IMG/VR virus record: IMGVR_UViG_3300009194_000020
Span: 1 to 43,393 of that record
Source of the DNA: a virus
Length of the DNA: 43,393 bases
Strand: one strand, 5' to 3'
The position numbers and the translations under genes were made by a program. A model generated the notes under the pieces. It was not told where the DNA came from. It saw only the letters and a list, made by a program, of their open reading frames with translations, and searched no databases. Within the stretch, counting starts at the first letter, position 1. Each line of letters starts with the position of its first letter. Positions 15,619 to 28,259 of the stretch are shown here, in pieces.

Positions 15619-18600
15619 ATGATGAAACGATTCAGCGATTACCTTCTCGAGAACTCGCTGTACAGTGACCAGCAAGGATATTCCACTCTAATGAACAACA
15701 AGGGGCAGGTAGCCGAATTGTTCTTCATTAACGTGATGGGGTTCCTATCACTGTACGCCATCGACCGAACTCAGCCGAAACTCGTCTCTTACCTACGAAG
15801 CGAGAAGTCGGTCCGGCCTGATAAGATCGGTGATGCCAATAACGATATGAGCCTGGCCGTTAAGATGGCCGTCGATGCTCAGGTTATCAATCAGGTGGCT
15901 TCAAAAGAGATCACCAAGCTGCTATACCTGATCAAGTCCCGGAAGATTGATACCATCGACGATGATAAGATTCGGGACTTGATGAAGCGAGCGCGTCTTG
16001 GAACTCATATGGATGGACGGATGAAGTCCATCTATCAAGACTACCAGGATGGTAAGACCAGCCTGGCCCAACTCGCTGGTGAAATCTATCCTCGCGCAAA
16101 AGCACGCAAAACGATCAGCTCTGAGTTTCTTGACGTCGCTCAAGCGATGAAGACTGAAATCAAAGCTGCAATGAAAACTGTTGCAACTACGGCAGATGCA
16201 GATAACCCTACCGACGACAATGCGCCAGATCCGGACCTCAAGACGGATGTGCCTAAACCGACATCTGCTGTGATTCCGGACCCTGATCCTGCAATTGCAA
16301 AACGAGCTGCGGCTAAGAAGACGAGTCAACAGGCTGGTGGGACTCCAGCAAAAGACAACCCGTATGATATGTCGCTTCGTGCGAATGTGATCGCAGCGTT
16401 CTTGGATATTGCTCCTCTCGATTCATGGGATGCTGTCAAAGCTGCCCTGAAGGACAAAGGGTTGAGCTCCCATAGGTTCCCCTGGACGATGGTCCTTTCT
16501 GCAGGGGACAAGAAGTTCGATATCACTGCCACTGATGTGCATGCTGCTGTGTTTCGCAATTACAAGCAGCTTCAACAATCAGGAGTATACGATAAGATCC
16601 GTCGAGGGATTAAAGCGTTTGGGTATCAGATCTCCGGCAAGAGCGTGTCCGTTGAAGTCTCGTACCTGCAGGGGTTCTATCAAGCAGTTGAGGCGAACCT
16701 ATTTGATCCAGAACTGCCACCCTACATCAGAGAGATTGCAGACAACGGGATCCCGCGCAATCTGTTTTCGATGAAGTATGTTAGCATGCTGCAGGCAAGT
16801 AGTGCAGGATTCAAAGATAAGGTCAATCTTGTCAACACTCTGCAAGACAACCGCATTCCGGTTCCCACCGTCGCCCTCGATTTCGATTTTGATGCAGTGG
16901 ATCCATCCGAGATCGTTGAGTTTCTGCTGGATGATCAATCAAACATAACAATCGTCGAGAGAATCAGCACACAACTGTATCGTGCAATCATCCAGAAGAA
17001 CCGCACTTCGGTTGCGATCCAGGACATCTACAGCGACATGGATGCTCTGAAGGCTGCTGTTTCGCCGAATCTGTTTGCCATCTATCAAGCGATGGAAGAG
17101 GCTGACGTGTGGGTCAAACTTGGATATCCTGACCGCAGCCTCAAACAAGCTGATGCAATGTCAGACTCCGATCTGGTGGTTGATACTGTACTGTCGCAAG
17201 GACCCGCAAGCAGGGTCAATGATGCCATCCGAACCATGGATAAGGAGCAACGTGCCACCCTCATCAACGCAGTGGCTAAAAGCACCAAAATCAGCAAGTT
17301 TATCGACCTGCTGATTAGTGCCCGCTATCGCGTAAACGCATCCGCTCTACTCGATGTGGTATGCCAAGCTGTAACCATCCAGGGCTTGTCCAACGAAGGG
17401 ATGAAGACGCGTCAAGATTGGACAGATACTGAAATCGCGTTCGTTAAAGCTAACCATATGCCGAACAGCACACAAATAGTTAGTGATTCCGATGCTGTCG
17501 CAGATTACCTCGATAACCTGATGTATACGTCACTGGTTATGCGGATACGGTCCAAAGCGAACGTGTATGCGGATGAGTTCAACAACATTGTGTTTGGTGA
17601 TACTCGCGCGATAATTCCTGACGGTGTACTCAACGATGAAGCATTCAAACCGTTGTCCAAGCCTATCATCGATGCAGCTACCATTCTGACATCTCAGCTT
17701 ATCGCTAGTGGGGCCCTGTTCAACTTCACTCAAACAAAGATGATCATGAGAATCATCTACGAAGCGGATGCGCTACGGGACGTTGAACCGAAAGAGATTG
17801 CTAATCGTGTCGCGATGTCGAACCATCTCGAAATCGGCACGCTGATGAATCTGAAGACGCAACAAGATGAGATGTATGGTGAGCGAGTTGCGCAACTGAT
17901 CGTCGAAAATGCGGATAGCACATTCATCCGTTCGAATGGATTCAAACTTGGCCGTTTCTTTGAACAGCTTATCGATCAACGGGATCCGACCCCAGAGCGG
18001 TTGGAGATGATTCAGAAGTCTGTTGAGAAGCTGCAGCACGCAAGCGGTGATGGAGATAGATTGCTTAACAGTGTTGCTGACTCAGTGGCTCGAATCACTG
18101 CTGTAATGAACAATGACCTTGAGTCTCCGCTGCTTGATACGCCAGCAGCTTGCATAAACACTTACAACACGATCTTGTCGAATGCAGAGGACGGTAGCCC
18201 GATCCGAGATCAAGCGGAACAGCTCCGTCGAATTGCTGCTGAGCAAGCAACGAATACGACCAGCACTGGTGAAAGTCTGGCTCGCACTATTGAGTTCGCT
18301 GCCGCGTACCTGACAGTGGATCAGGTTCAGAATCTTGTTGATCGGATGACAGGTAACGCGAACGTCCTCAAACGAAACTCGTTTGCTATTGGGATGGTGA
18401 AACGTGCCCTTGAAGATTATCCTGAGAAGCTGGCCGTTGTAAGAAAGAATGTTGAAGAAGCAATCCGAACTCTCCCTGGCAGTCTGATCAAAGAAGTATA
18501 CAAGGATGCTCCTGATGCCATCACGGAGACAATCATGATGGCGGATGATCCAGATAGCCTGATGGAGCGGATTAATAGCCCCACGTACCGTCGAGAAATC

Positions 18601-19794
18601 AACCGCGATATCGTTACCACTGCTGTGTTCGATAGTGCGGGCGCTCGGGACATGATCTACGATGGTCCCATTCGGCCGTTGATGGATCTCGACAAGTCTC
18701 GTCTTCTTCAGGTGCTCGAGTACAACGACATCAAAGTCAACATGAAGAAGAACAAGAGGAAGAAGAACGAGTCGTACAAGGAGTATCTCGATCGCGTTGT
18801 TCAGAACACCAACCTCGCTGAGGATATTGGCGAGCTGCTCGTTTCTCGAGTTGACAACACACAGGACCAGCTTGAGCTGAAAACGATCGAGTATGAGAAC
18901 TACAACAGCGGTCGCCACGGCGATACAGCGCTCGAGTTCCTCGAGGAGTTTGATGTGCAGCAATCGCTGACTCAACCTGAGTACTGGGAGTTCCGTGACG
19001 AGCAAACAGACACCGTCATGTACCCGACGTTCCATGGTACTGGATCTGTTGCAGCATCGATGATCCTACGTAAAGGATTTGCGGTGATCAGCGCCAATGA
19101 CGCATCTGCTGTCGGTCGTATGCTTGGTAACGGGATCTATTACAGCAACGTGCTCGACAAGGTTGCTCAGTATATCGGCGATACAGGGTTTGGTCGCAAG
19201 AAAGGGACGGTTGGATACATCTTCGAAATGGAAGCAGTGCCAGGGATCAAAGGAACTCACCACGAATCTGCAGGTCTGGGTGGAGATGGTATTCGCTCAC
19301 CTGAATGGTGTGTGTACAATGCTGGGAAGCAGCTATCGATCCGTAAGGCATACAAGGTTCGGATGGTGTCAACATCTCTGATCCGAAAGCTGCAAGATAA
19401 GCATAGCGATCCAGGAGTCAACGAGGGGAGTTTCAAGCTGAGGGCATTCAGCGATTGGATCCATGCGATTCGCGAGAGTGTTGGAGCCAGCGATGAGACG
19501 GTATCAGGAGCGACTGCAGTACTCGTCTTCCGTGACGGTAAACTGCCCCATCCTACTGATCCGACCCAAGTTATCGATTGGGATGACTTCGATTACGTAT
19601 ACGGCAGCTACACAAACGTCGGTCTTGAATCATCTGCAGCAGGGGTCGCCCTGGTAGTTGACATTCCGGCTGGAATGGATGATGCTGTAGATATTGAAGG
19701 TGTCCATATCGTGACAAACACAAAGGAGTTCAGTGATTCGGAGCTATTCAACAGCATCCGATCCAGCGGACTTCTGACTGGAGGTAACCAATAA
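15619..19794 (+). CDS. Giant PARP-type ADP-ribosyltransferase, probable head-packaged protein
   Basis: The 1391-aa protein has a C-terminal ADP-ribosyltransferase domain of PARP (H-Y-E) type: FHGTG (His1139), GNGIYYSN (Tyr1174/1175) and SPEWCVYN (Glu1229). About 1100 residues of mostly helical sequence precede it. A low-complexity linker with PDPDPAIAKRAAAKK lies near 210-235. The N-terminus MKRFSDYLLENS resembles T4 head-protein targeting peptides (MKTYQEFIAEA), which are cut after the Glu by the prohead protease; ATGs at 15619 and 15622 are both possible. T4 Alt, an injected ADP-ribosyltransferase, is an analogue rather than a clear homologue (682 aa, R-S-E type). The late promoter at 15566 fits a virion protein. 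Target unknown. Confidence 0.8.
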   Translation: MMKRFSDYLLENSLYSDQQGYSTLMNNKGQVAELFFINVMGFLSLYAIDRTQPKLVSYLRSEKSVRPDKIGDANNDMSLAVKMAVDAQVINQVASKEITKLLYLIKSRKIDTIDDDKIRDLMKRARLGTHMDGRMKSIYQDYQDGKTSLAQLAGEIYPRAKARKTISSEFLDVAQAMKTEIKAAMKTVATTADADNPTDDNAPDPDLKTDVPKPTSAVIPDPDPAIAKRAAAKKTSQQAGGTPAKDNPYDMSLRANVIAAFLDIAPLDSWDAVKAALKDKGLSSHRFPWTMVLSAGDKKFDITATDVHAAVFRNYKQLQQSGVYDKIRRGIKAFGYQISGKSVSVEVSYLQGFYQAVEANLFDPELPPYIREIADNGIPRNLFSMKYVSMLQASSAGFKDKVNLVNTLQDNRIPVPTVALDFDFDAVDPSEIVEFLLDDQSNITIVERISTQLYRAIIQKNRTSVAIQDIYSDMDALKAAVSPNLFAIYQAMEEADVWVKLGYPDRSLKQADAMSDSDLVVDTVLSQGPASRVNDAIRTMDKEQRATLINAVAKSTKISKFIDLLISARYRVNASALLDVVCQAVTIQGLSNEGMKTRQDWTDTEIAFVKANHMPNSTQIVSDSDAVADYLDNLMYTSLVMRIRSKANVYADEFNNIVFGDTRAIIPDGVLNDEAFKPLSKPIIDAATILTSQLIASGALFNFTQTKMIMRIIYEADALRDVEPKEIANRVAMSNHLEIGTLMNLKTQQDEMYGERVAQLIVENADSTFIRSNGFKLGRFFEQLIDQRDPTPERLEMIQKSVEKLQHASGDGDRLLNSVADSVARITAVMNNDLESPLLDTPAACINTYNTILSNAEDGSPIRDQAEQLRRIAAEQATNTTSTGESLARTIEFAAAYLTVDQVQNLVDRMTGNANVLKRNSFAIGMVKRALEDYPEKLAVVRKNVEEAIRTLPGSLIKEVYKDAPDAITETIMMADDPDSLMERINSPTYRREINRDIVTTAVFDSAGARDMIYDGPIRPLMDLDKSRLLQVLEYNDIKVNMKKNKRKKNESYKEYLDRVVQNTNLAEDIGELLVSRVDNTQDQLELKTIEYENYNSGRHGDTALEFLEEFDVQQSLTQPEYWEFRDEQTDTVMYPTFHGTGSVAASMILRKGFAVISANDASAVGRMLGNGIYYSNVLDKVAQYIGDTGFGRKKGTVGYIFEMEAVPGIKGTHHESAGLGGDGIRSPEWCVYNAGKQLSIRKAYKVRMVSTSLIRKLQDKHSDPGVNEGSFKLRAFSDWIHAIRESVGASDETVSGATAVLVFRDGKLPHPTDPTQVIDWDDFDYVYGSYTNVGLESSAAGVALVVDIPAGMDDAVDIEGVHIVTNTKEFSDSELFNSIRSSGLLTGGNQ

Positions 19795-20225: not shown

Positions 20226-22703
20226 ATGAAGCTCAATGAAAAGCAGAGCTTGGCGATGAAGAAAGTGATTGAAGGCCACAACCTGTACATCGGCGGTCCT
20301 GGTGGTGTCGGTAAATCTGTGCTGGTTCGTGAGATTCAAGATAAGTTTGGCGACTCGTGCGTCTTTCTTGCTCCAACAGGCATCGCTGCCCTCAACATTG
20401 GTGGCGCAACGATCCACTCCACGTTCAAGTTTCCGCACTCGTTTCTTACCAAGCGTGACGCGAAGAACGTCCATCAGAAGACAGCGGACCTGTTCAGTCC
20501 AACCGGATCCGTCAAGCGAATCGTAATCGACGAGATTTCGATGGTTCGCGGGGATATGATGGCAGCAATCGATCAACAGCTCCGTCTTGCTCGTCGAAAG
20601 AATGTCCCGTTTGGGGGCCTTCAGGTGATCGTTGTTGGTGATTTCTTCCAGCTTCCGCCGGTTCTCACTCAACGCGATAAGTCAATATATTTCCGTGACT
20701 ACTCATCAGTCTACGCGTTCGGGGATGAGACTTGGTCGGCAGCTCAATTCGACTACATTGAGCTGGATCAGATCATGCGTCAGTCTGACACCACGTTCAT
20801 CGAGCATCTGCAGAACATTCGCACCAAGAAGGCGGGGTACCAAGAGTCTGTTCGATTCTTCAACAGGGTTGGAAGCGAGAACAGTGATGATGTCCTCGAT
20901 ATGGATCCGACGTTCATCTGTTCTACCAACCGTGCAACGGATATCGTCAACACCCAAAACTACAGCGAGTTGGACGGCGAAGAACGAACATTCCGTGCAC
21001 GCAAGTGGGGTCAGATTGATTCAGAACCCTCCCCGACTGAGCTGCAACTCAAGTTCGGAACGAAGGTGATTTTCACTGCAAACACCGAAGAAGCCATGAA
21101 TGGTGAGATCGGATACGTCGTTGGGTTTGTAGGCGACAAAGTGAAGGTCCTCATGGAGAAGGATGAGAGCGAGATTCTTGTTGGGAGCTACAAGTGGGAG
21201 CAAGTAGAGTTCATCAACAAAGGCAACGGTCTTGCACGTGAGGTGATCGGGACGTACGAGCAGCTTCCGATTAAGCATGGTTGGGCAGTCACGATCCACA
21301 AATGCATGCCGGGCCATGTACAAGTTATGACACCTACCGGCAAACGACGTTTGGATCAACTGCATGTGGGTGATATGGTCCAGTCTCGGACTGGGTGGAA
21401 CAACGTGCTTAACCATTGGGCTACTGGCAAAAAGAAGCAGTACACTATCACGCTCGAGTCAGGCCGTACAGTAAGCAGTAGTGCTGATCATCAGTTTTAT
21501 GCTGCGCGAAATGGTAAAGCCCCCGAATTTATAGAGCTCAGTTCGTTGCGTGTGGGAGATCATCTGTCGGTCAGCGCTCAGCCTGTTGAGTTTGTCGATA
21601 ATGGGGTCTCCGTTGACCTGAGTTACCTCATGGGGATGCTGATTGGAGATGGTTGCTATAGCGAGAGTTATCGAGCTGACCACCGTATCGATTTCACTAC
21701 AGCGGACGTTGAACTAGAGCGCACGTTCACTGACTTCATGGAGTCTCGTGGGCTGCAAGTTGGTCAGATCTACACCAACAAGAAATCACCACAGTGCGTT
21801 ACTCTGTATACCCACAGCAAGCAGATTAGGAGCAACCTTGAGGAGTTGGGTCTCGATTACGCGACTGCACGTAACAAGTGCATCCCCGAAATCCTGAAAT
21901 CGTCCACCTTGGAATGTAGAGCGGCTCTGATCAGCGGACTATTGGATACTGACGGTCATGTATCCAAACAACATAACAAGTTTGTGTTTGCTACCAGCTC
22001 GAAGACTCTAGCCGAGGATATTCGAGAGGTTCTGGATACGCTTGGAGTGTTCAGCAGTGTACATACACAGAACGACGTATCGTACCAAACGGTAGTTACA
22101 GGCCGCTCATCTGTGGATCTAGCGAATCTGCTTTCGTTGAAGGTTGGGTACAAGGCTGATCGGTGCAAGCAGATTGCAAGGTCGGAAATCAAGCGAGAGA
22201 ACCGCGACTCTGTGCCATTCATGAAAGCAGTAAACAACTACACTAAATCACAACTCGTAGATCGAGGCGAGGCGTTACACACCCAACCGCAATACTTGTG
22301 GCTGGGGGACAGCCCGAAGAACCGTCGGAAGTATATCGATGAGTGCATCAAACACGGCGTCGAGCTACATCCAGACGTTTCGGAAGGGATGCGATTTGAG
22401 AAGATCATCAGCATCGACGAAGGAAGCGAAGAGGAGATGTTCGATATCGAGGTAGCTAACGACCACAATTTCTACGCAGATGGGGTTCTGGTTCACAATT
22501 GCCAGGGGTTGACTCTGCCGAGTGGTGTTATCGATCTCGGTCGAGGAGCGTTCTGTCATGGGCAAACATATGTGGCACTCTCTCGAATCAAGACGTTGGA
22601 TGGGATGGCCCTCATCTCAAACATCCGCAATCAGGATATCATCGTTGATCCTGAAGTGAGAGAGTTTTACGATAACGACTGTCGCGGTGTTGGATTGTTC
22701 TGA
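20226..22703 (+). CDS. dda: Dda-like SF1 DNA helicase with inserted intein
   Basis: 5'-3' helicase of the RecD/Pif1 group that starts replication forks in T4-like phages. The frame is 825 aa, but residues 360-758 are an intein; the exteins total 426 aa, near T4 Dda (439 aa). Visible motifs are Walker A GGPGGVGKS (22-30), motif II IDEISMV, motif III GDFFQLPPV, and motif V split by the intein at TIHK/CQGLTL. Motif VI follows as YVALSRIKTLDGM. The normally Ser/Cys position of the HKxQG motif is Cys, supplying the +1 nucleophile for splicing. Confidence 0.92.
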   Translation: MKLNEKQSLAMKKVIEGHNLYIGGPGGVGKSVLVREIQDKFGDSCVFLAPTGIAALNIGGATIHSTFKFPHSFLTKRDAKNVHQKTADLFSPTGSVKRIVIDEISMVRGDMMAAIDQQLRLARRKNVPFGGLQVIVVGDFFQLPPVLTQRDKSIYFRDYSSVYAFGDETWSAAQFDYIELDQIMRQSDTTFIEHLQNIRTKKAGYQESVRFFNRVGSENSDDVLDMDPTFICSTNRATDIVNTQNYSELDGEERTFRARKWGQIDSEPSPTELQLKFGTKVIFTANTEEAMNGEIGYVVGFVGDKVKVLMEKDESEILVGSYKWEQVEFINKGNGLAREVIGTYEQLPIKHGWAVTIHKCMPGHVQVMTPTGKRRLDQLHVGDMVQSRTGWNNVLNHWATGKKKQYTITLESGRTVSSSADHQFYAARNGKAPEFIELSSLRVGDHLSVSAQPVEFVDNGVSVDLSYLMGMLIGDGCYSESYRADHRIDFTTADVELERTFTDFMESRGLQVGQIYTNKKSPQCVTLYTHSKQIRSNLEELGLDYATARNKCIPEILKSSTLECRAALISGLLDTDGHVSKQHNKFVFATSSKTLAEDIREVLDTLGVFSSVHTQNDVSYQTVVTGRSSVDLANLLSLKVGYKADRCKQIARSEIKRENRDSVPFMKAVNNYTKSQLVDRGEALHTQPQYLWLGDSPKNRRKYIDECIKHGVELHPDVSEGMRFEKIISIDEGSEEEMFDIEVANDHNFYADGVLVHNCQGLTLPSGVIDLGRGAFCHGQTYVALSRIKTLDGMALISNIRNQDIIVDPEVREFYDNDCRGVGLF
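21303..22499 (+). other. Intein with LAGLIDADG homing endonuclease domain
   Basis: 399-residue in-frame protein insertion. Block A begins CMPGHVQVMTPTGKRRLDQL (Cys1). Block B is GRTVSSSADHQFYA. The endonuclease blocks are LSYLMGMLIGDG (helicase-frame residues 465-476) and RAALISGLLDTDG (565-577). Block F is MFDIEVANDHNFYADGV, and block G is LVHN followed by Cys+1. All residues needed for splicing and both endonuclease acidic positions are present, so it looks active. Confidence 0.93.
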
Positions 22704-22716
22704 GGAGGAAGTTGCG

Positions 22717-22896
22717 ATGAAATTCAAGATCCCTTGGTACATCCTGACGATTGCATGTTGGCAGCTAGCGGCCCCAAACGTGCACAACATTGTTGACGCG
22801 TTGCTGCTTGGCATGGCGAATGCGTTTGTATGCTTTGTGTTTGTTGGAATGCTTGTTCAGATCCCAGGCATCCAAAACAACGAAACAGGTAAGTGA
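22717..22896 (+). CDS. Small membrane protein, 59 aa
   Basis: A GAGGAGG ribosome site overlaps the dda stop and lies 9 nt before ATG 22717. The product has two hydrophobic segments (WYILTIACWQLAAP and LLLGMANAFVCFVFVGMLVQ) and a polar tail. Sandwiched between dda and the macro-domain gene. Not recognised. Confidence 0.65.
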   Translation: MKFKIPWYILTIACWQLAAPNVHNIVDALLLGMANAFVCFVFVGMLVQIPGIQNNETGK

Positions 22897-22900
22897 TATA

Positions 22901-23416
22901 ATGATAGCTAATATCAAGAGTGATCTATTCAAGTTTGCGATTGATGCTGAGGTTGATGGGATCGCGCACGGCTGCAACTGCTTCCATACGATGGGGAGTG
23001 GTGTTGCAGTCGGGGTACGTAAATTCACCCATGACCAGTGTCTGGTAGCTGACCGACAAACATCATACGGGGACATCAACAAACTCGGGACCTATTCAAG
23101 CGTTAACACAGAGCATGATATTGACGTGTTCAACTTATACACGAAGGATGGGTATAAAGGCATGATAGCTCCCCGAACACGTTGGCCTGAGCAGTTGGTG
23201 TTCATCTCATGGCAAGCGTTTTCTGATGCTATGATGAAAGTGCTGGTGGATCACCGAAAGAAGGGGTTGCATATTGCGATCCCAGAAATCGGGTGTGGGC
23301 TAGCAGGGGGCAGTGTAGTAGACCTACACCGCACACTACACCAGCTCGAGGGACGTCTGGAAGGCGCTTTTGGGTACAGCGCTGAAGACTATATGATCAC
23401 AATCGTTTCGCAATAA
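22901..23416 (+). CDS. Macro-domain protein
   Basis: Macro domains bind ADP-ribose and its derivatives; many remove ADP-ribose from proteins or nucleic acids or process ADP-ribose 1''-phosphate. The 171-aa single-domain protein has HGCNCFHTMGSGVA (ligand-binding loop 1) near residues 23-36 and IPEIGCGLAGG (loop 2 region) near 127-137. ATG 22901 follows AGGTAAG. The ADP-ribosyltransferase encoded 3 kb upstream makes a role in reversing or reading that mark plausible. Clearing ADP-ribose phosphates from RNA repair is an alternative. Confidence 0.85.
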   Translation: MIANIKSDLFKFAIDAEVDGIAHGCNCFHTMGSGVAVGVRKFTHDQCLVADRQTSYGDINKLGTYSSVNTEHDIDVFNLYTKDGYKGMIAPRTRWPEQLVFISWQAFSDAMMKVLVDHRKKGLHIAIPEIGCGLAGGSVVDLHRTLHQLEGRLEGAFGYSAEDYMITIVSQ

Positions 23417-23804: not shown

Positions 23805-23890
23805 GCCCCATGTCCCCTCATCGGTCTTCTAAACCGATCCTTTAAGCGAGGGATGGAAGGCACGAGGTTCAATTCCTCCATGGGGCTCCA
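23805..23890 (+). tRNA. tRNA-Arg(TCT)-like RNA with aberrant D arm
   Basis: The acceptor GCCCCAT/ATGGGGC, discriminator T and encoded CCA, T arm CGAGG-TTCAATT-CCTCC, and an anticodon-like arm TCGGT-CTTCTAA-ACCGA (TCT) are all present. Only about 9 nt separate the acceptor from the anticodon stem, so there is no normal D arm, and the variable region is about 25 nt. CCCTC (23815-23819) can pair with GAGGG (23848-23852), or CCTT with AAGG within the variable region. It could be a D-armless tRNA or a tRNA-mimicking RNA such as a Y RNA for the Ro-like protein encoded downstream. Confidence 0.6.
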
Positions 23891-23898
23891 TCCATTGT

Positions 23899-23950
23899 GG
23901 GACGTCTACAGCAATACACGCGCATACATCAAATTAGCCATGCACGTCCC
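23899..23950 (+). ncRNA. CAGCAA hairpin RNA, copy 1
   Basis: Outer stem GGGACGT/ACGTCCC; CAGCAA at exactly position 11 (23909-23914); inner stem GCAT/ATGC stacked on the 3' strand; GT follows the stem. Lies 8 nt after the CCA end of the tRNA-Arg-like RNA. One of five copies sharing this plan. Confidence 0.6.
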
Positions 23951-23985
23951 GTCTTTAATACTGCGGTAGGTTGAGAGAGAAAAGA

Positions 23986-24023
23986 AGAACGATCGCAGCA
24001 AACCGTAACCGATACATCGTTCT
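23986..24023 (+). ncRNA. CAGCAA hairpin RNA, copy 2 (short form)
   Basis: Outer stem AGAACGAT/ATCGTTCT; CAGCAA again at position 11 (23996-24001); GT directly after the stem. It lacks a clear inner hairpin. It lies 20 nt upstream of the DUF2828 gene start, so it may be in that gene's leader. Confidence 0.55.
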
Positions 24024-24043
24024 GTGAATAAGGGAGAATGTGA

Positions 24044-25462
24044 ATGACAACACTATCTGAAGCAATAGCGAAGGTTAGCAACAAAACGACAACCGAAAAC
24101 GGGATGGAGATCAAGCGATCCTCCGAATCGAAGCTGGTTGATCTATTCTTTGCTTTTGGGGCATCACGTGGTCAGGACGAACTGATCGTCGAGAAGTTCG
24201 CACAAGCGTTTAACGAAGATCCCGAAGTTGCTGTCCGCATTCTCCTGCATGGTCGCGATGCGCGAGAGGGTATGGGTGAGCGGCAACTGTTCCGATCTGT
24301 GGTTAAGCATCTTGCTGTGCTCGACTACAAACTAGCGGAACGCGTCCTGCCAAAAATTCCTGAGCTTGGCCGTTGGGACGATGTGCTGTGTTTGATCGAC
24401 ACTCCGGTCGGCAAGGACGCTCTCGAGATGATCGAAAAAGCGTTATACGCTGGGGATGGGTTATGTGCCAAATGGATGCCCCGTAAAGCGACGAAGGCTG
24501 ACAACTCGGCTGCTCGAATCCGAAAGCACATGAACCTGACTCCTCGCGCATATCGTAAGCTGTTGGTGCGTCTGTCTGAGACTGTTGAGCAGCAGATGTC
24601 AGCGAAGCAGTTCGATCAGATTGAGTATTCCCGTGTGCCGTCTGTTGCAGCCGCTCGGTACCAAGCAGCATTCGATCGAAACGATCCTGATCGGTATGCT
24701 GAGTATCGCGACTCGCTTGTGAAGGGCGATTCGGACACCAAGATCAACGCAGGTGCAGTGTTTCCGTACGATGTTGTCCGAGCAGCGTTTACGGGGGATG
24801 AAGCTGTTGCGAACGAGCAGTGGAAATCTCTACCGGATTGGATCCCGAACGACAAATCATTCCTGTCGGTTGTTGATGTATCTGGATCGATGACGGCGCA
24901 TCAAGTGTCAGGTGCAGTTGATGCAAGAGAGGTTGCAATTGGTCTCGGCTTGTACGTTGCCGAGCGATGCAAAGCAGAAGCATTCCGCAACAAATTCATC
25001 ACATTCTCGACCAAGCCTGAATTCGTTGATGTATCAGGGCTCGCTCTGAAACCAGCAATACGGCGAGCAGAACGATCAAACTGGGCAATGACGACAAATT
25101 TGGAGGCAACACTCGATCTGATTGTTGACTCTGCGGTTGAGCATAATGTTGACCCCAAAGATATGCCCGAGTGCTTGATCATCTTCAGTGATATGCAGTT
25201 CAACCAGGGTGTTGATAGCCCGAACAAACCGAACGCGATGATCAAACAGAAGTTCAAGAACAACGGGTACAAAGTACCGCAGATTGTCTACTGGAATCTA
25301 GCTAACACTGAACGCAACACGCCAGTGTCGTTCGATAAGAGTGGTGTCGCTCTTGTGTCAGGATTCAGTCCTTCACTAATGAAGAGCGTGCTATCAGCAG
25401 ATCAACTCAACCCGATGGATATCATGTTGTCAGCAGTGATGGATGATCGGTACAATTTCTGA
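24044..25462 (+). CDS. DUF2828 (TROVE/Ro60-like plus vWA) RNA-binding protein
   Basis: The 472-aa protein has an N-terminal helical-repeat region typical of TROVE-type folds: LVDLFFAFGASRGQDELIVE, RILLHGRDAREGMGERQLFR, LPKIPELGRWDDVLCLID. A C-terminal von Willebrand A domain follows, with MIDAS motif DVSGSMT (Asp278), FSTKPEFVD, TNLEATLDLI and IIFSDMQF. Ro60 proteins bind Y RNAs and misfolded RNAs through this architecture; DUF2828 proteins are found in phages and plants with unknown role. It is set in an array of tRNAs and repeated structured RNAs, so an RNA chaperone or scaffold role is plausible. Start follows AAGGGAG. Confidence 0.82.
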   Translation: MTTLSEAIAKVSNKTTTENGMEIKRSSESKLVDLFFAFGASRGQDELIVEKFAQAFNEDPEVAVRILLHGRDAREGMGERQLFRSVVKHLAVLDYKLAERVLPKIPELGRWDDVLCLIDTPVGKDALEMIEKALYAGDGLCAKWMPRKATKADNSAARIRKHMNLTPRAYRKLLVRLSETVEQQMSAKQFDQIEYSRVPSVAAARYQAAFDRNDPDRYAEYRDSLVKGDSDTKINAGAVFPYDVVRAAFTGDEAVANEQWKSLPDWIPNDKSFLSVVDVSGSMTAHQVSGAVDAREVAIGLGLYVAERCKAEAFRNKFITFSTKPEFVDVSGLALKPAIRRAERSNWAMTTNLEATLDLIVDSAVEHNVDPKDMPECLIIFSDMQFNQGVDSPNKPNAMIKQKFKNNGYKVPQIVYWNLANTERNTPVSFDKSGVALVSGFSPSLMKSVLSADQLNPMDIMLSAVMDDRYNF

Positions 25463-25489
25463 CGTTGTCGAAAGAGGGAGTTCAGTACC

Positions 25490-25855
25490 ATGTTGAACCA
25501 AGAGCTCGATGTGATCTATCAACTGCGAGAGCAGCTACAAGACCAACTCGATACAATCAGACGTCAAGGGTGTAATAATGTCGCTGGAATGGTGTTGATT
25601 CGGAGGGTTAAGGACGTGCTCATTGAGCAGCATGACGTCGACCCATCCAAAGCGGCAGTTATCGCCAGCCGGACTTCCATCGAGGTTCCGCCGCTCGATG
25701 ATGACGGCGAAGCGGTCAGCGAGCTGATCAAGCTGACAGACGATTTCGTCAAACTTCTCGTTGAAATGGCGAAGACGCTGATGGAGAGTCAGGAGAATTT
25801 CGAAGATATTCTGTATGAGTTGGCTCCGGCTCTGACGATCAAATTCAGTTACTAA
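25490..25855 (+). CDS. Hypothetical helical protein, 121 aa
   Basis: Follows the Ro-like gene by 27 nt, with AGAGGGAG upstream. The sequence is helical and acidic: LDVIYQLREQLQDQLDTIRR at the N-terminus and KLTDDFVKLLVEMAKTLMES near the C-terminus. It is probably co-transcribed with the DUF2828 gene and might be a partner. Not recognised. Confidence 0.7.
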   Translation: MLNQELDVIYQLREQLQDQLDTIRRQGCNNVAGMVLIRRVKDVLIEQHDVDPSKAAVIASRTSIEVPPLDDDGEAVSELIKLTDDFVKLLVEMAKTLMESQENFEDILYELAPALTIKFSY

Positions 25856-26229: not shown

Positions 26230-26306
26230 CGCCAGGTGGCTGAAATGGTTATGGCGCTGGACTGCAAATCCAGAGAATACGGGTTCGAGTCCCGTCCTGG
26301 CGTCCA
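26230..26306 (+). tRNA. tRNA-Cys (GCA)
   Basis: Acceptor CGCCAGG/CCTGGCG, anticodon arm CTGGA-CTGCAAA-TCCAG, T arm CGGG-TTCGAGT-CCCG, discriminator T, encoded CCA. Standard cloverleaf of 77 nt. Confidence 0.92.
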
Positions 26307-26328
26307 AAAACTTTGAGGAGATAAAAAG

Positions 26329-26508
26329 ATGTTGAGTCCGATTGCAATGGGGGCGATGTTGTGGATTATCGTATTCGTCTTTCTGTTCCTGTCTATTCGG
26401 TGGACTTCACAGGGTCCTGAAGTCTTGATCAAGATGTTCTGGATTGTGATGACTCTATGGGCGTTCGTCAACGCAGCAGGATACAGCAACCTCCATTTTG
26501 TTAGCTAA
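26329..26508 (+). CDS. Small membrane protein, 59 aa
   Basis: Protein gene squeezed between two tRNAs, with a GAGGAG ribosome site 8 nt before its ATG. Two membrane segments: MLWIIVFVFLFLSIRW and LIKMFWIVMTLWAFVNAAGY. Not recognised; perhaps an accessory gene inserted in the tRNA array. Confidence 0.65.
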   Translation: MLSPIAMGAMLWIIVFVFLFLSIRWTSQGPEVLIKMFWIVMTLWAFVNAAGYSNLHFVS

Positions 26509-26520
26509 GGATCAAGCAAG

Positions 26521-26769
26521 ATGACGATGCTTCAACCACCACATCCAGGGCGAGTCATTCAACGTCGGATTCTGCCAGCATTGAACATTACCGCAGTCGA
26601 GTTGGCAGCAACCATGCATACCGTCAATGAAGCAGACCTCGTGCAGGTGTTGGAAGGGTCAGCTCCGATTACCGAAAGCATTGCTTATAATCTGGAGCAG
26701 ATTGAGATCGGTGACGCAGAGCACTGGCTGCGGATGCAGAAGAACTACGATCAGTCACGCAGTAAATGA
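26521..26769 (+). CDS. HigA-like XRE antitoxin-type protein, 82 aa
   Basis: The sequence follows the HigA/VapI antidote pattern: HPGRVIQRRILPALNITAVE (HPGE-type start), then an HTH-like segment VELAATMHTVNEADLVQVLE. The ending is DAEHWLRMQKNYDQSR, equal to the family's typical xxFWLxLQxxYD end. HigA proteins neutralise HigB RNases and repress their own operon. No HigB-type toxin is encoded next to it, so it may counter a host toxin or act only as a repressor (inference). AAGGA precedes the ATG. Confidence 0.75.
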   Translation: MTMLQPPHPGRVIQRRILPALNITAVELAATMHTVNEADLVQVLEGSAPITESIAYNLEQIEIGDAEHWLRMQKNYDQSRSK

Positions 26770-26777
26770 AGGCGTGT

Positions 26778-26854
26778 GCCCGACTGGCCCAATTGGCAGA
26801 GGCAAAAGGTCTAAGCCCTTAGAGTTCTCGGTTCGAATCCGAGGTCGGGTACCA
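26778..26854 (+). tRNA. tRNA with TAA anticodon (Leu-like), C33
   Basis: Acceptor GCCCGAC/GTCGGGT, T arm CTCGG-TTCGAAT-CCGAG, discriminator A, CCA. The best anticodon arm is AAAGG-TCTAAGC-CCTTA, giving TAA with C instead of U at position 33. The D arm looks Leu-like (AATTGGCAGAGGC), but the variable region is only about 5 nt, whereas bacterial tRNA-Leu normally has a long one. Confidence 0.75.
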
Positions 26855-26864
26855 AAATAAATTT

Positions 26865-26950
26865 CAAATCAGCGGTTGACGGTTCGAAATAAACAAGGGA
26901 AGATGCTTCCCATAGTTATTCAAAAAAGTTTGAAAGATATAGCTGATTTG
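26865..26950 (+). ncRNA. Three-way-junction RNA between Leu-like tRNAs
   Basis: A 9-bp closing stem CAAATCAGC/GCTGATTTG encloses two perfect hairpins, GGGAAG-atg-CTTCCC and TTCAAA-aaag-TTTGAA. It lies 10 nt after the preceding tRNA. It could be a stable small RNA or a processing structure; no known family recognised. Confidence 0.45.
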
Positions 26951-26964
26951 AACAACAAGGGTCG

Positions 26965-26993
26965 TAAATACTTCCCACGCTCTTTAAAATCAA
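26965..26993 (+). promoter_or_regulatory. TAAATA box and boxA-like site before tRNA array
   Basis: CGTAAATA (TAAATA at 26965-26970) matches the late-promoter family of this phage. GCTCTTTAAAATCAA (26979-26993) is boxA-like, 14 nt before the next tRNA, repeating the arrangement at 23775. Confidence 0.45.
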
Positions 26994-27007
26994 CAAGTTT
27001 AATCCCG

Positions 27008-27085
27008 GGGTGACTGAAGGGAATTGGCATACCTTCCTGATTTAGAATCAGGAGCTTCTCGGTTCAAGTCCGAGGTCACCCACCA
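27008..27085 (+). tRNA. tRNA-Leu (TAG), short variable region
   Basis: Acceptor GGGTGAC/GTCACCC, anticodon arm CCTGA-TTTAGAA-TCAGG (TAG, reads CUA), T arm CTCGG-TTCAAGT-CCGAG, discriminator A, CCA. The variable region is only 5 nt (AGCTT), unlike the long arm usual for bacterial tRNA-Leu. Confidence 0.85.
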
Positions 27086-27090
27086 ATTTC

Positions 27091-27175
27091 AGCGGGATAT
27101 ACAAGTGGACAAAGTGAGAGGTCTCATAAGCCTCTGGTCATGCCTTCGTCGGTTCGAATCCGACTCCCGCTACCA
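27091..27175 (+). tRNA. tRNA with CAT anticodon (Met/Ile2), long variable region
   Basis: Acceptor AGCGGGA/TCCCGCT, anticodon arm GAGGT-CTCATAA-GCCTC (CAT), T arm GTCGG-TTCGAAT-CCGAC, discriminator A, CCA. The 13-nt variable region can form GGT/GCC, giving a type II-like 85-nt tRNA, which is unexpected for a CAT anticodon. Confidence 0.8.
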
Positions 27176-27179
27176 AATT

Positions 27180-27230
27180 GGGACGACTACAGCAACCCAA
27201 TCTGACATATATGAAATCAGACGTCGTCCC
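27180..27230 (+). ncRNA. CAGCAA hairpin RNA, copy 3
   Basis: Outer stem GGGACGAC/GTCGTCCC; CAGCAA at position 11 (27190-27195); inner stem TCTGA/TCAGA (27201-27221); GT after the stem. Starts 4 nt after the CCA of the preceding tRNA. Confidence 0.65.
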
Positions 27231-27244
27231 GTCAAAAAAGAGAG

Positions 27245-27320
27245 GCATCCTTAGCTCAGCAGGTAGAGCACTGGATTGAAGATCCAGGTGTCCTAGGTTC
27301 GATTCCTAGAGGGTGCACCA
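27245..27320 (+). tRNA. tRNA-Phe (GAA)
   Basis: Acceptor GCATCCT/AGGGTGC, anticodon arm CTGGA-TTGAAGA-TCCAG, T arm CTAGG-TTCGATT-CCTAG, discriminator A, CCA. Standard 76 nt. Confidence 0.95.
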
Positions 27321-27326
27321 TGTTTT

Positions 27327-27383
27327 AGGACGATTGCAGCAAATCAAAATTCAGACTCCTAATCTGACTTTAATTGTCGTCCT
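27327..27383 (+). ncRNA. CAGCAA hairpin RNA, copy 4
   Basis: Outer stem AGGACGA/TCGTCCT; CAGCAA at position 11 (27337-27342); inner stem TCAGA/TCTGA, the swapped version of copy 3 (a compensatory pattern); GTTTCAA after the stem. Starts 6 nt after tRNA-Phe. Confidence 0.65.
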
Positions 27384-27408
27384 GTTTCAAAGTAAACACA
27401 ATAGCAGT

Positions 27409-27484
27409 GCTGGATTAGCTCAGCAGGTAGAGCAGGTGCCTTGTAAGCACTTGGTCGTGGGTTCGATTCCTACATCCAGCACCA
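27409..27484 (+). tRNA. tRNA-Thr (TGT)
   Basis: Acceptor GCTGGAT/ATCCAGC, anticodon loop CTTGTAA on stem GGTGC/GCACT, T arm GTGGG-TTCGATT-CCTAC, discriminator A, CCA. Standard 76 nt. Confidence 0.95.
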
Positions 27485-27496
27485 CAACAGTTTTCA

Positions 27497-27573
27497 CGGA
27501 GCGTAGCTCAGCTTGATAGAGCGCTCGGTTTGGGACCGAGAGGTCGAAGGTTTGAGTCCTTCCGTTCCGACCA
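27497..27573 (+). tRNA. tRNA-Pro (TGG)
   Basis: Acceptor CGGAGCG/CGTTCCG, anticodon arm CTCGG-TTTGGGA-CCGAG, T loop TTTGAGT, discriminator A, CCA. Standard 77 nt. Confidence 0.95.
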
Positions 27574-27577
27574 ATTT

Positions 27578-27629
27578 AGGACAGTTGCAGCAACCCAACA
27601 TATCCATCGATACGGAAAACCGCTGTCCT
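27578..27629 (+). ncRNA. CAGCAA hairpin RNA, copy 5
   Basis: Outer stem AGGACAG/CTGTCCT; CAGCAA at position 11 (27588-27593); small inner stem CGG-aaaa-CCG abutting the 3' strand; GTTTCAA after the stem, as in copy 4. Starts 4 nt after tRNA-Pro. Confidence 0.65.
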
Positions 27630-27642
27630 GTTTCAAGTTAAA

Positions 27643-27717
27643 TGGCGTGTAGCTCAATGGTAGAGCATCCGGCTGTTAACCGGAAGGTTCTCGGTTCGAG
27701 TCCGAGCGTGCCAGCCA
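27643..27717 (+). tRNA. tRNA-Asn (GTT)
   Basis: Acceptor TGGCGTG/CGTGCCA, anticodon arm TCCGG-CTGTTAA-CCGGA, T arm CTCGG-TTCGAGT-CCGAG, discriminator G, CCA. Standard 75 nt. Confidence 0.95.
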
Positions 27718-27736
27718 ATTCCTCAACAGAGAGAGC

Positions 27737-27859
27737 TTGACTATACATTCTTCAGGTGAATATCGTTGCAAGTTATGTGGCGATACATCCTTCACGTATC
27801 TGGACGACGGTAAAGGTCTCTGTTGTGATAGTCGTGGTACTCGATACCACAAGAAGTAG
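27737..27859 (+). CDS. Tiny zinc-finger-like protein, 40 aa
   Basis: TTG-start frame after GAGAGAG, placed between tRNA-Asn and tRNA-Tyr. It contains CKLCGDTS and LCCDSRGTRYHKK, a CxxC...CC/H arrangement like a minimal zinc finger. The TTG start and length make it tentative; codon choice looks like a real gene. Function unknown. Confidence 0.5.
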   Translation: MTIHSSGEYRCKLCGDTSFTYLDDGKGLCCDSRGTRYHKK

Positions 27860-27865
27860 GTTTAC

Positions 27866-27954
27866 GGGGGCACACATTACGACACGTGGCGAGTCTAGCC
27901 GACTGTAAATCGGTGGCGCAAGCTGTGAAGGTTCGACTCCTTCTGTCCCCACCA
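27866..27954 (+). tRNA. tRNA-Tyr (GTA)
   Basis: Acceptor GGGGGCA/TGTCCCC, anticodon loop CTGTAAA, long variable region as expected for Tyr, T arm GAAGG-TTCGACT-CCTTC, discriminator A, CCA. 89 nt. Confidence 0.93.
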
Positions 27955-27962
27955 ATCGTTCT

Positions 27963-28038
27963 GGGTCTATAGCTCAATGGTTAGAGCGTCCCACTCATAA
28001 TGGGTTGGTTTCTGGTTCAAGTCCAGATGGACCCACCA
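27963..28038 (+). tRNA. tRNA-Met (CAT)
   Basis: Acceptor GGGTCTA/TGGACCC, anticodon arm CCCA-CTCATAA-TGGG, T arm CTGG-TTCAAGT-CCAG, discriminator A, CCA. Position 1-72 is paired, so it is not an initiator; it could be Met or lysidine-type Ile. Confidence 0.9.
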
Positions 28039-28050
28039 CCTCCCTTTTGT

Positions 28051-28178
28051 GCCGAACGAACATGGCCTGTGTCAGTGACCATACCACGTGTGTCTGGTAG
28101 CATAGCTTGCTGAAACAGCAGATATAGACTGGCTGCTGGTGGTAGACATAGCTCGGTTCGATTCCGAGGTTCGGCCCC
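28051..28178 (+). ncRNA. Oversized tRNA-like RNA (about 125 nt)
   Basis: GCCGAAC (28051-28057) pairs with GTTCGGC (28169-28175), next to a perfect T arm CTCGG-TTCGATT-CCGAG. No normal D or anticodon arm is seen. The 90-nt interior instead has TACCA/TGGTA and TGCTG-aaa-CAGCA hairpins. CCA is not encoded (CCCT follows). Possible identities: tRNA with an insertion, Y-RNA-like tRNA mimic, or decayed tRNA. Confidence 0.5.
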
Positions 28179-28183
28179 TTAGA

Positions 28184-28259
28184 TGCGCCTTAACTCAGTT
28201 GGTAGAGTGTCCGACCGATAATCGGATGGTCCTCGGTTCGAGTCCGAGAGGCGCAACCA
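28184..28259 (+). tRNA. tRNA-Ile (GAT), C33
   Basis: Acceptor TGCGCCT/AGGCGCA, anticodon arm TCCGA-CCGATAA-TCGGA, T arm CTCGG-TTCGAGT-CCGAG, discriminator A, CCA. The loop has C instead of the near-universal U at position 33. Confidence 0.9.

Follow-up and report, generated by a model that had tools for sequence, protein, structure and literature searches.

Phage Ro proteins are already known. In the Listeria phage CKA15, the DUF2828 protein CKA15_055 was detected by 20 peptides in purified virions; within 2 kb upstream of its gene lie three noncoding regions with very strong transcription, which were guessed to be Y RNAs (PMC12282133). The source gives one transcribed region by its coordinates, 26,236-26,727, and cites Chen et al. 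2014 for putative Y RNAs of mycobacteriophages. The Ro-like protein of CKA15, perhaps together with RNA, may enter the host alongside the phage DNA. As far as bacteria are concerned, the Rsr–Y RNA complex of D. radiodurans works with PNPase (PMC7790460).

The locus and its DUF2828 protein

The window analysed here is the whole stretch of 43,393 nucleotides of the viral record IMGVR_UViG_3300009194_000020 (IMG/VR). The features on which the present article focuses are the following, R1 and R2 being the models of the hairpins and of the rewired RNAs, respectively:

22790..23416, plus strand: phosphatase/macro-like protein (phrog_335), two genes upstream of DUF2828
23805..23890, plus strand: putative rewired tRNA-Arg(UCU); R2 97.9 bits, with the window copy within the training set
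23899..23950, plus strand: Y-like hairpin 1 (GGGACGU-CUA-CAGCAA ... ACGUCCC-GUC); R1 match 23897-23955, E 0.0036
23986..24023, plus strand: Y-like hairpin 2 (AGAACGA-UCG-CAGCAA ... UCGUUCU-GUG); R1 match 23984-24028, E 0.028
24044..25462, plus strand: DUF2828/DUF7788 protein, a phage protein with the predicted Ro60-like ring fold (Pfam, phrog_850, AlphaFold2 and Foldseek)
26230..28259, plus strand: ten canonical tRNA genes with three Y-like hairpins interspersed (ARAGORN, Rfam)
27180..27230, plus strand: Y-like hairpin 3, between tRNA-Met and tRNA-Phe; R1 match 27178-27235, E 9.3e-6
27327..27383, plus strand: Y-like hairpin 4, between tRNA-Phe and tRNA-Thr; R1 match 27325-27388, E 7.5e-6
27578..27629, plus strand: Y-like hairpin 5, between tRNA-Pro and tRNA-Asn; R1 match 27576-27634, E 8.3e-6

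The open reading frame at 24044-25462 encodes 472 amino acids matching the Pfam families DUF7788 (E 4e-49) and DUF2828 (E 1e-26) as well as phrog_850, designated 'RNA-binding protein' (E 1.6e-145). Its relatives cover 681 phage records, each sharing less than 60% identity, and the mycobacteriophage homologues bear the annotation 'Ro-like RNA binding protein'. The protein consists of an N-terminal helical repeat part and a vWA domain, the MIDAS motif of which (DxSxS...T...D) is intact—D278, S280, S282, T351 and D383—and invariant across the alignments. When the AlphaFold2 model (pLDDT 84, pTM 0.81) was compared with the PDB by Foldseek, the best match was Ro60, and the top eleven matches were, without exception, Ro60/Rsr structures. 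These include Ro60 (1yvr, E 1.7e-8; 2i91, E 2.4e-8; also 1yvp), the Ro60 of the Thermus phage phiLo (9l5y, E 4.5e-8) and the Rsr from D. radiodurans (2nvo, E 5.4e-7), with TM-scores of 0.53-0.63. At the level of sequence, what the PDB search recovered was confined to the beginning of the vWA domain (TROVE protein 9l5y, E 2e-4; Ro60, E 0.2), and vWA_Ro60 was matched weakly by 2 of 65 relatives.

The first-pass annotation had spoken of a TROVE/vWA-type protein and had proposed that its predicted structure be compared with Ro60. That comparison came out in its favour, and the Ro60-like fold and the vWA domain with its MIDAS stand; the TROVE domain (PF05731), however, is absent from the protein, the Pfam search having returned DUF2828 and DUF7788 only. 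Judged from the model, the DUF2828 protein probably works like Ro60 and is its distant homologue, albeit one lacking the TROVE Pfam domain. A search for DUF2828 in cellular genomes yielded one locus and no lead, and the literature search for DUF2828 brought up plant papers and nothing informative.

With regard to the neighbourhood, a conserved operon was considered and rejected, since the 22790 protein had just a single weak relative among the loci. On the same strand as this macro-like protein, a 1391-aa protein (15619-19794) contains a PARP-type ADP-ribosyltransferase domain (residues 1099-1186), and a Dda/PIF1-like helicase gene at 20226-22703 carries an intein with a LAGLIDADG endonuclease.

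The 86-nt RNA and its relatives

The 86-nt RNA at 23805-23890, situated 153 nt upstream of the DUF2828 gene on the same strand, was found as the first-pass annotation had described it, i.e. with an acceptor, a T arm and CCA, and with no normal D arm. Its acceptor (GCCCCAUG/CAUGGGGC, 8 bp), its anticodon arm with the loop CUUCUAA (UCU), its T arm and the encoded UCCA can all be recognized, but only about ten bases separate the acceptor from the anticodon arm, so that a normal D arm is missing. The anticodon arm is enclosed by a helix, CCCUC/GAGGG, followed by a D-loop-like UGGA and then by the T arm; judged from its position and its sequence, the UGGA could be the equivalent of the D loop. The RNA does not form a cloverleaf with a D arm, as a canonical tRNA would, and the interval is left uncalled by ARAGORN and by the Rfam tRNA model at its gathering threshold, the Rfam tRNA-Sec model giving a sub-threshold 35.3 bits. 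The arginine anticodon UCU and C35 are present, together with what, by position, appears to be the equivalent of A20. The discriminator in the window copy is U73, which is among the listed bacterial arginine discriminators, although A or G is usual. It should be noted that alternative folds of the RNA are nearly isoenergetic and that an exact-pattern search for its close copies found none.

When the fetched loci were searched for tRNAs whose D region is short, the same odd RNA turned up in three others, L080 and the Felix O1-type L086 and L087. A pattern fixing only the anticodon stem-loop (UCU), the long variable region and the T loop then gave 60 further IMG/VR contigs; 41 distinct members were distinguished, and the rewired RNA is present in more than 100 other phage sequences. 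A rewired RNA is also predicted on the minus strand of Felixounavirus momo (MN850580, 32326-32407). The connector of 8-11 nt that follows the acceptor pairs with a strand located 3' of the anticodon arm, forming what is here called the D-V helix—for example CCCGAC/GUUGGG, CCUGAC/GUUAGG, CCAGAC/GUUUGG, CCUCC/GGAGG, CCCAC/GUGGG and CCAGC/GCUGG—and this helix played no part in the selection of members. Among the 26 sequences of type I, 85.9% of the D-V helix cells pair, and the covariation score, counting the D-V helix, the variable stem and the T stem, is 0.40 against 0.14 in shuffled (0/500) and at most 0.16 in slid controls. In the 15 sequences of type II, the helix is paired to 97.8% and the covariation is 0.79 against 0.14 in shuffled controls (0/500), this helix being only about 3 bp long and its exact tested register occurring in 44 of 79 members of the wider set, among the matches listed. 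The stem of the variable arm crosses the D-V helix, resulting in a pseudoknot. On the 3' side of the second D-V strand, type I has GG in 26 of 26 sequences and GGA in 24 of 26. For the extension of type II, the pattern GUAAYUGGA followed by a T loop, with the anticodon left free, gave at least 120 stretches and, among the matches listed, 79 structured members. Because type I sequences were selected for the UCU stem-loop, and those of the type II extension for the UGGA, the conservation of these elements within the respective sets is not independent.

Of the type II members found with the anticodon left free, 78 of 79 among the matches listed carry arginine anticodons—UCU (37), ACG (32), UCG (5) and CCU (4)—the sole exception having GAU. 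The scan of the fetched loci with a free anticodon gave UCU 31, UCG 2, ACG 1 and CCU 1, most of these loci having been fetched with the UCU pattern. The rewired class, with at least 41 bits, is separated by R2 from ordinary tRNAs, with at most 33 bits, except for a pair of candidates in between that score around 40 bits and include the Arg(UCG) member of L126. A held-out member, unannotated in the Acinetobacter phage ME3, scores 74.6 bits. An ordinary tRNA-Arg(UCU) is not called in 58 of 60 loci with the rewired RNA, which suggests that the latter supplies that tRNA; one locus, L117, contains three rewired arginine isoacceptors with no ordinary tRNA-Arg call. A tentative candidate with a Tyr(GUA) anticodon and a weak T stem (L162:1958-2047, 39.6 bits) was also seen; if real, it would show that the topology is not strictly arginine-only.

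How the chain would be arranged may be described as follows. The strand equivalent to positions 10-13 and the D-loop GGA would lie 3' of the anticodon arm, whereas the strand equivalent to positions 22-25 would come directly 3' of the acceptor. The D-stem strands would thus swap places around the anticodon arm, and because of this swap the chain order could differ while the helices stay the same and A20, the nucleotide of arginine identity, is retained. Since A20 is the main determinant for the E. coli ArgRS (PMC9976931), a functional tRNA-Arg would need the GGA to be kept after the rewired stem. It seems reasonably likely that non-cloverleaf arginine tRNAs (UCU, UCG, ACG and CCU) are a natural phage class with the 5' strand of the D stem and the D loop located 3' of the anticodon arm, the L-shaped core and the A20 identity being rebuilt. 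Neither rearranged phage tRNAs nor this tRNA-Arg family were found in the open-access literature searched, and the family is not known from elsewhere. Bacterial tRNAs have been described as invariably standard cloverleaves.

Phages counter tRNA-cutting defences, and the rewired tRNA-Arg might act outside translation, either as a decoy absorbing a host nuclease or toxin directed at tRNA-Arg, or as an uncharged regulator. Both the near-exclusive arginine anticodons and the odd fold would suit such a role. It is nevertheless considered unlikely, since the RNA retains the encoded CCA, the acceptor, the T arm, the GGA and C35, an ordinary tRNA-Arg(UCU) is seldom called beside it, as given above, and a D-armless tRNA-His functions in E. 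coli translation (PMC11551756). The reading as a tRNA that would be charged with arginine and read AGA is preferred.

Some other stretches of the window resemble tRNAs or small RNAs. At 27865-27954 lies an uncalled tRNA-Tyr(GUA)-like gene whose variable arm is long and whose acceptor and D stem are set apart by an extended stretch. The RNA at 28053-28175, tRNA-like and of about 120 nt, has the acceptor GCCGAAC/GUUCGGC, a perfect T arm, an unusual interior of 90 nt and a 3' CCCU in place of CCA. Between the two tRNA-Leu genes (26860-26965), a 9-bp stem CAAATCAGC/GCTGATTTG with no CAGCAA may represent a further small RNA.

The CAGCAA hairpins

The hairpin family was recognized in the sequences flanking DUF2828 at 80 IMG/VR loci. 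These flanks show tandem hairpins composed of a 7-bp stem, a 3-nt linker (often UUA), the CAGCAA motif, a variable interior, the closing strand and G[U/A]U. The fair test of the pairing is a strand-controlled count of non-redundant CAGCAA occurrences within 1 kb of DUF2828, in which a perfect 7-bp partner in the fixed register accompanies 113 of 180 on the coding strand and 5 of 219 on the opposite one (P 1e-44); for other hexamers, the share is near 5-15%, counted before the removal of redundancy. The consensus was drawn from 161 non-redundant hairpins, and hairpin lengths range from 32 to 183 nt. Of the stem pairs, 97.9% are formed against 35-47% in slid controls, although the selection itself required pairing and the covariation is thus partly its product.

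The covariance model R1, built from 41 hairpins with the window sequence excluded, matches the 43-kb window at exactly five places, each of them on the plus strand. The two hairpins indicated upstream of the gene by the first-pass annotation are therefore real, even if their individual scores are modest; the second of them ends 20 nt before the DUF2828 start. Three stronger ones (E ~1e-5), positioned in the tRNA array, had been overlooked, the fourth hairpin containing an inner 5-bp hairpin with the loop CUCCUAA.

Among 26 phage records with DUF2828, 25 have an R1 match, the phage W11 being the only one without it, whereas T4 and SPO1, both lacking DUF2828, give no match (best E 0.9). Of 35 contigs that had been picked on other grounds, 6 of 6 with DUF2828 and 4 of 29 without it have a match (P 1e-4); three of the DUF2828-less contigs give strong matches, but contigs are fragments and the gene may lie off the contig. 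In some other phages the hairpins lie on the downstream side of the gene or at a distance of 10-200 kb from it, and the distant sites are in several cases taken to be their tRNA arrays. In CKA15, the hairpin block at 25,206-25,576 (also delimited as 25,285-25,554) lies inside the 2-kb interval upstream of the gene, separate from the transcribed region given above. The 'species 1/2' RNAs of T4 were also considered as family members and rejected. In two jumbo phages, of Erwinia and Pectobacterium (L097 and L098), an RNA ligase is encoded upstream of DUF2828 at a distance of no more than one or two genes, which suggests a setting of RNA repair.

About 20 long hairpins in the relatives enclose a permuted tRNA consisting, in order, of a T arm, a loop-closed acceptor stem and a D arm. 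The Rfam model of YrlA (RF02553) aligns full-length to the long hairpins at 34-40 bits, the best score of 40.1 being below the gathering threshold of 69. The five hairpins of the window are short and have no tRNA module (the contig may be partial). A second tRNA-mimic form occurs 90-410 nt upstream of DUF2828 in L050, L058, L061, L071 and L074, where the hairpin stem takes the place of the acceptor stem on an unpermuted tRNA body with D, anticodon and T arms, the anticodon loops having GAA, UGU and UUU. As with Y RNAs, a Ro protein is encoded alongside and the end-stem bears a conserved motif, one differing from that of the Rfam YrlA.

The hairpins could alternatively serve the processing or regulation of the tRNA/DUF2828 transcript and not be partners of the Ro-like protein, as many of them lie between tRNA genes, one closely precedes the DUF2828 start and their lengths vary widely. 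Such a role is judged quite improbable, since they track the presence of DUF2828 even from downstream or distant positions, many contain the permuted tRNA modules seen in YrlA, and T4 has tRNA genes without DUF2828 and no hairpin of this family. The CAGCAA hairpins, and not the 86-nt RNA, are thus the likely RNA partners of the DUF2828 protein.

It was the 86-nt RNA that the first-pass annotation had proposed as the tRNA-mimicking Y RNA of the protein, pointing to its position just upstream of the gene and to its missing D arm. DUF2828 is, however, present in only 6 of 38 contigs carrying the rewired RNA, which is clear in just 2 of 20 DUF2828 phage records. In the comparison of DUF2828 loci, it is the other RNA family, the hairpins, that co-occurs with the gene. 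The outcome which the first-pass annotation had named as refuting, namely related phages whose DUF2828 genes have no tRNA-like RNA nearby, was observed for the 86-nt RNA but not for the hairpins, to which it had referred just briefly. The 86-nt RNA moreover has a full acceptor, CCA and a canonical anticodon loop, all absent from YrlA, and no CAGCAA stem. The proposal was rejected for this rare co-occurrence and must be regarded as very unlikely; the two RNAs are separate families, the Ro protein and the 86-nt RNA are mostly not connected, and with so few rewired-RNA contigs holding DUF2828 their neighbourhood here is probably incidental. The possibility of a tRNA pseudogene in decay, as the escape of the 86-nt RNA from the standard tRNA finders might imply, is contradicted by the covariation—dozens of divergent members retain all helices, with compensatory changes, and the encoded CCA—and can practically be dismissed.

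Proposed reading and comparison with known systems

It is quite likely that the window contains two systems side by side, a phage Ro-Y-like ribonucleoprotein locus and a topologically rewired tRNA-Arg(UCU). The fold, the RNA family and its co-occurrence with the gene, the covariation and the restriction to arginine are observed, and it is from these that we infer binding, charging and function. The phage Ro-Y-like particle suggested by the first-pass annotation is hence upheld by the Ro60 fold and by a hairpin family found beside DUF2828 in very different phages, though not with the partner originally named. The DUF2828 protein would form a Ro60-like ring with a vWA domain, and its partners would be the small Y-like RNAs, whose stem and CAGCAA would serve as its docking site. 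The variable interior—a short hairpin, a permuted tRNA or a tRNA body—may act as a gate, or as a tether by which enzymes that handle tRNA or RNA, for example the host PNPase, are brought to the ring. Such a particle would aid the phage in sorting damaged or misfolded RNAs. PNPase also limits a D-armless tRNA in E. coli (PMC11551756), and a common link through this enzyme between the rewired tRNA and the Ro-Y particle is speculative.

If this is true, the view that all bacterial tRNAs are canonical would have a natural exception in the rewired arginine tRNAs of phages. With a widespread family confined to arginine, one can test directly whether translation in bacteria accepts other tRNA topologies, and why arginine. 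As standard finders miss most of the rewired genes, phage tRNA inventories would lack an arginine class. The defined RNA family opens the guessed phage Ro-Y particle to pull-down, the candidates being cultured phages of Listeria, E. coli, Aeromonas and mycobacteria.

In comparison with Ro60/Rsr (1yvr, 2nvo, 9l5y), the DUF2828 protein shares the overall fold, i.e. the helical ring and the vWA domain with MIDAS, but almost no sequence similarity beyond the vWA start, and it belongs to DUF2828/DUF7788 instead of TROVE. The hairpins resemble YrlA/YrlB in the end-stem around a circularly permuted tRNA in many relatives, in the short companion RNAs and in the Ro protein nearby; their protein-side element, stem-NNN-CAGCAA, is missing from the YrlA consensus (AAUGC ... 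CUUGU), and the form with an unpermuted tRNA body differs from the permuted YrlA. The putative Y RNAs of CKA15 and mycobacteriophages accompany the same protein family, and a phage Ro-Y ribonucleoprotein was already proposed there; in the accessible text of that source, the CKA15 RNAs are left unverified, with no defined family or covariation (PMC12282133).

With tRNA-Arg, tRNA-Sec and allo-tRNAs, the rewired RNA has in common the acceptor, anticodon and T arms, the CCA, the UCU loop, the long variable region and a 12-bp acceptor/T branch (8/4 or 7/5). It differs from them in having no D arm in place, in the partner strand and the GGA following the anticodon arm, and in the variable stem that crosses the D-V helix as a pseudoknot. 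The D-armless mitochondrial tRNAs and the engineered mini-HisT (PMC11551756) likewise pass from the acceptor to the anticodon arm with no D arm, but whereas they have lost the arm outright, the rewired RNA appears to rebuild its pairing and its loop from the variable region.
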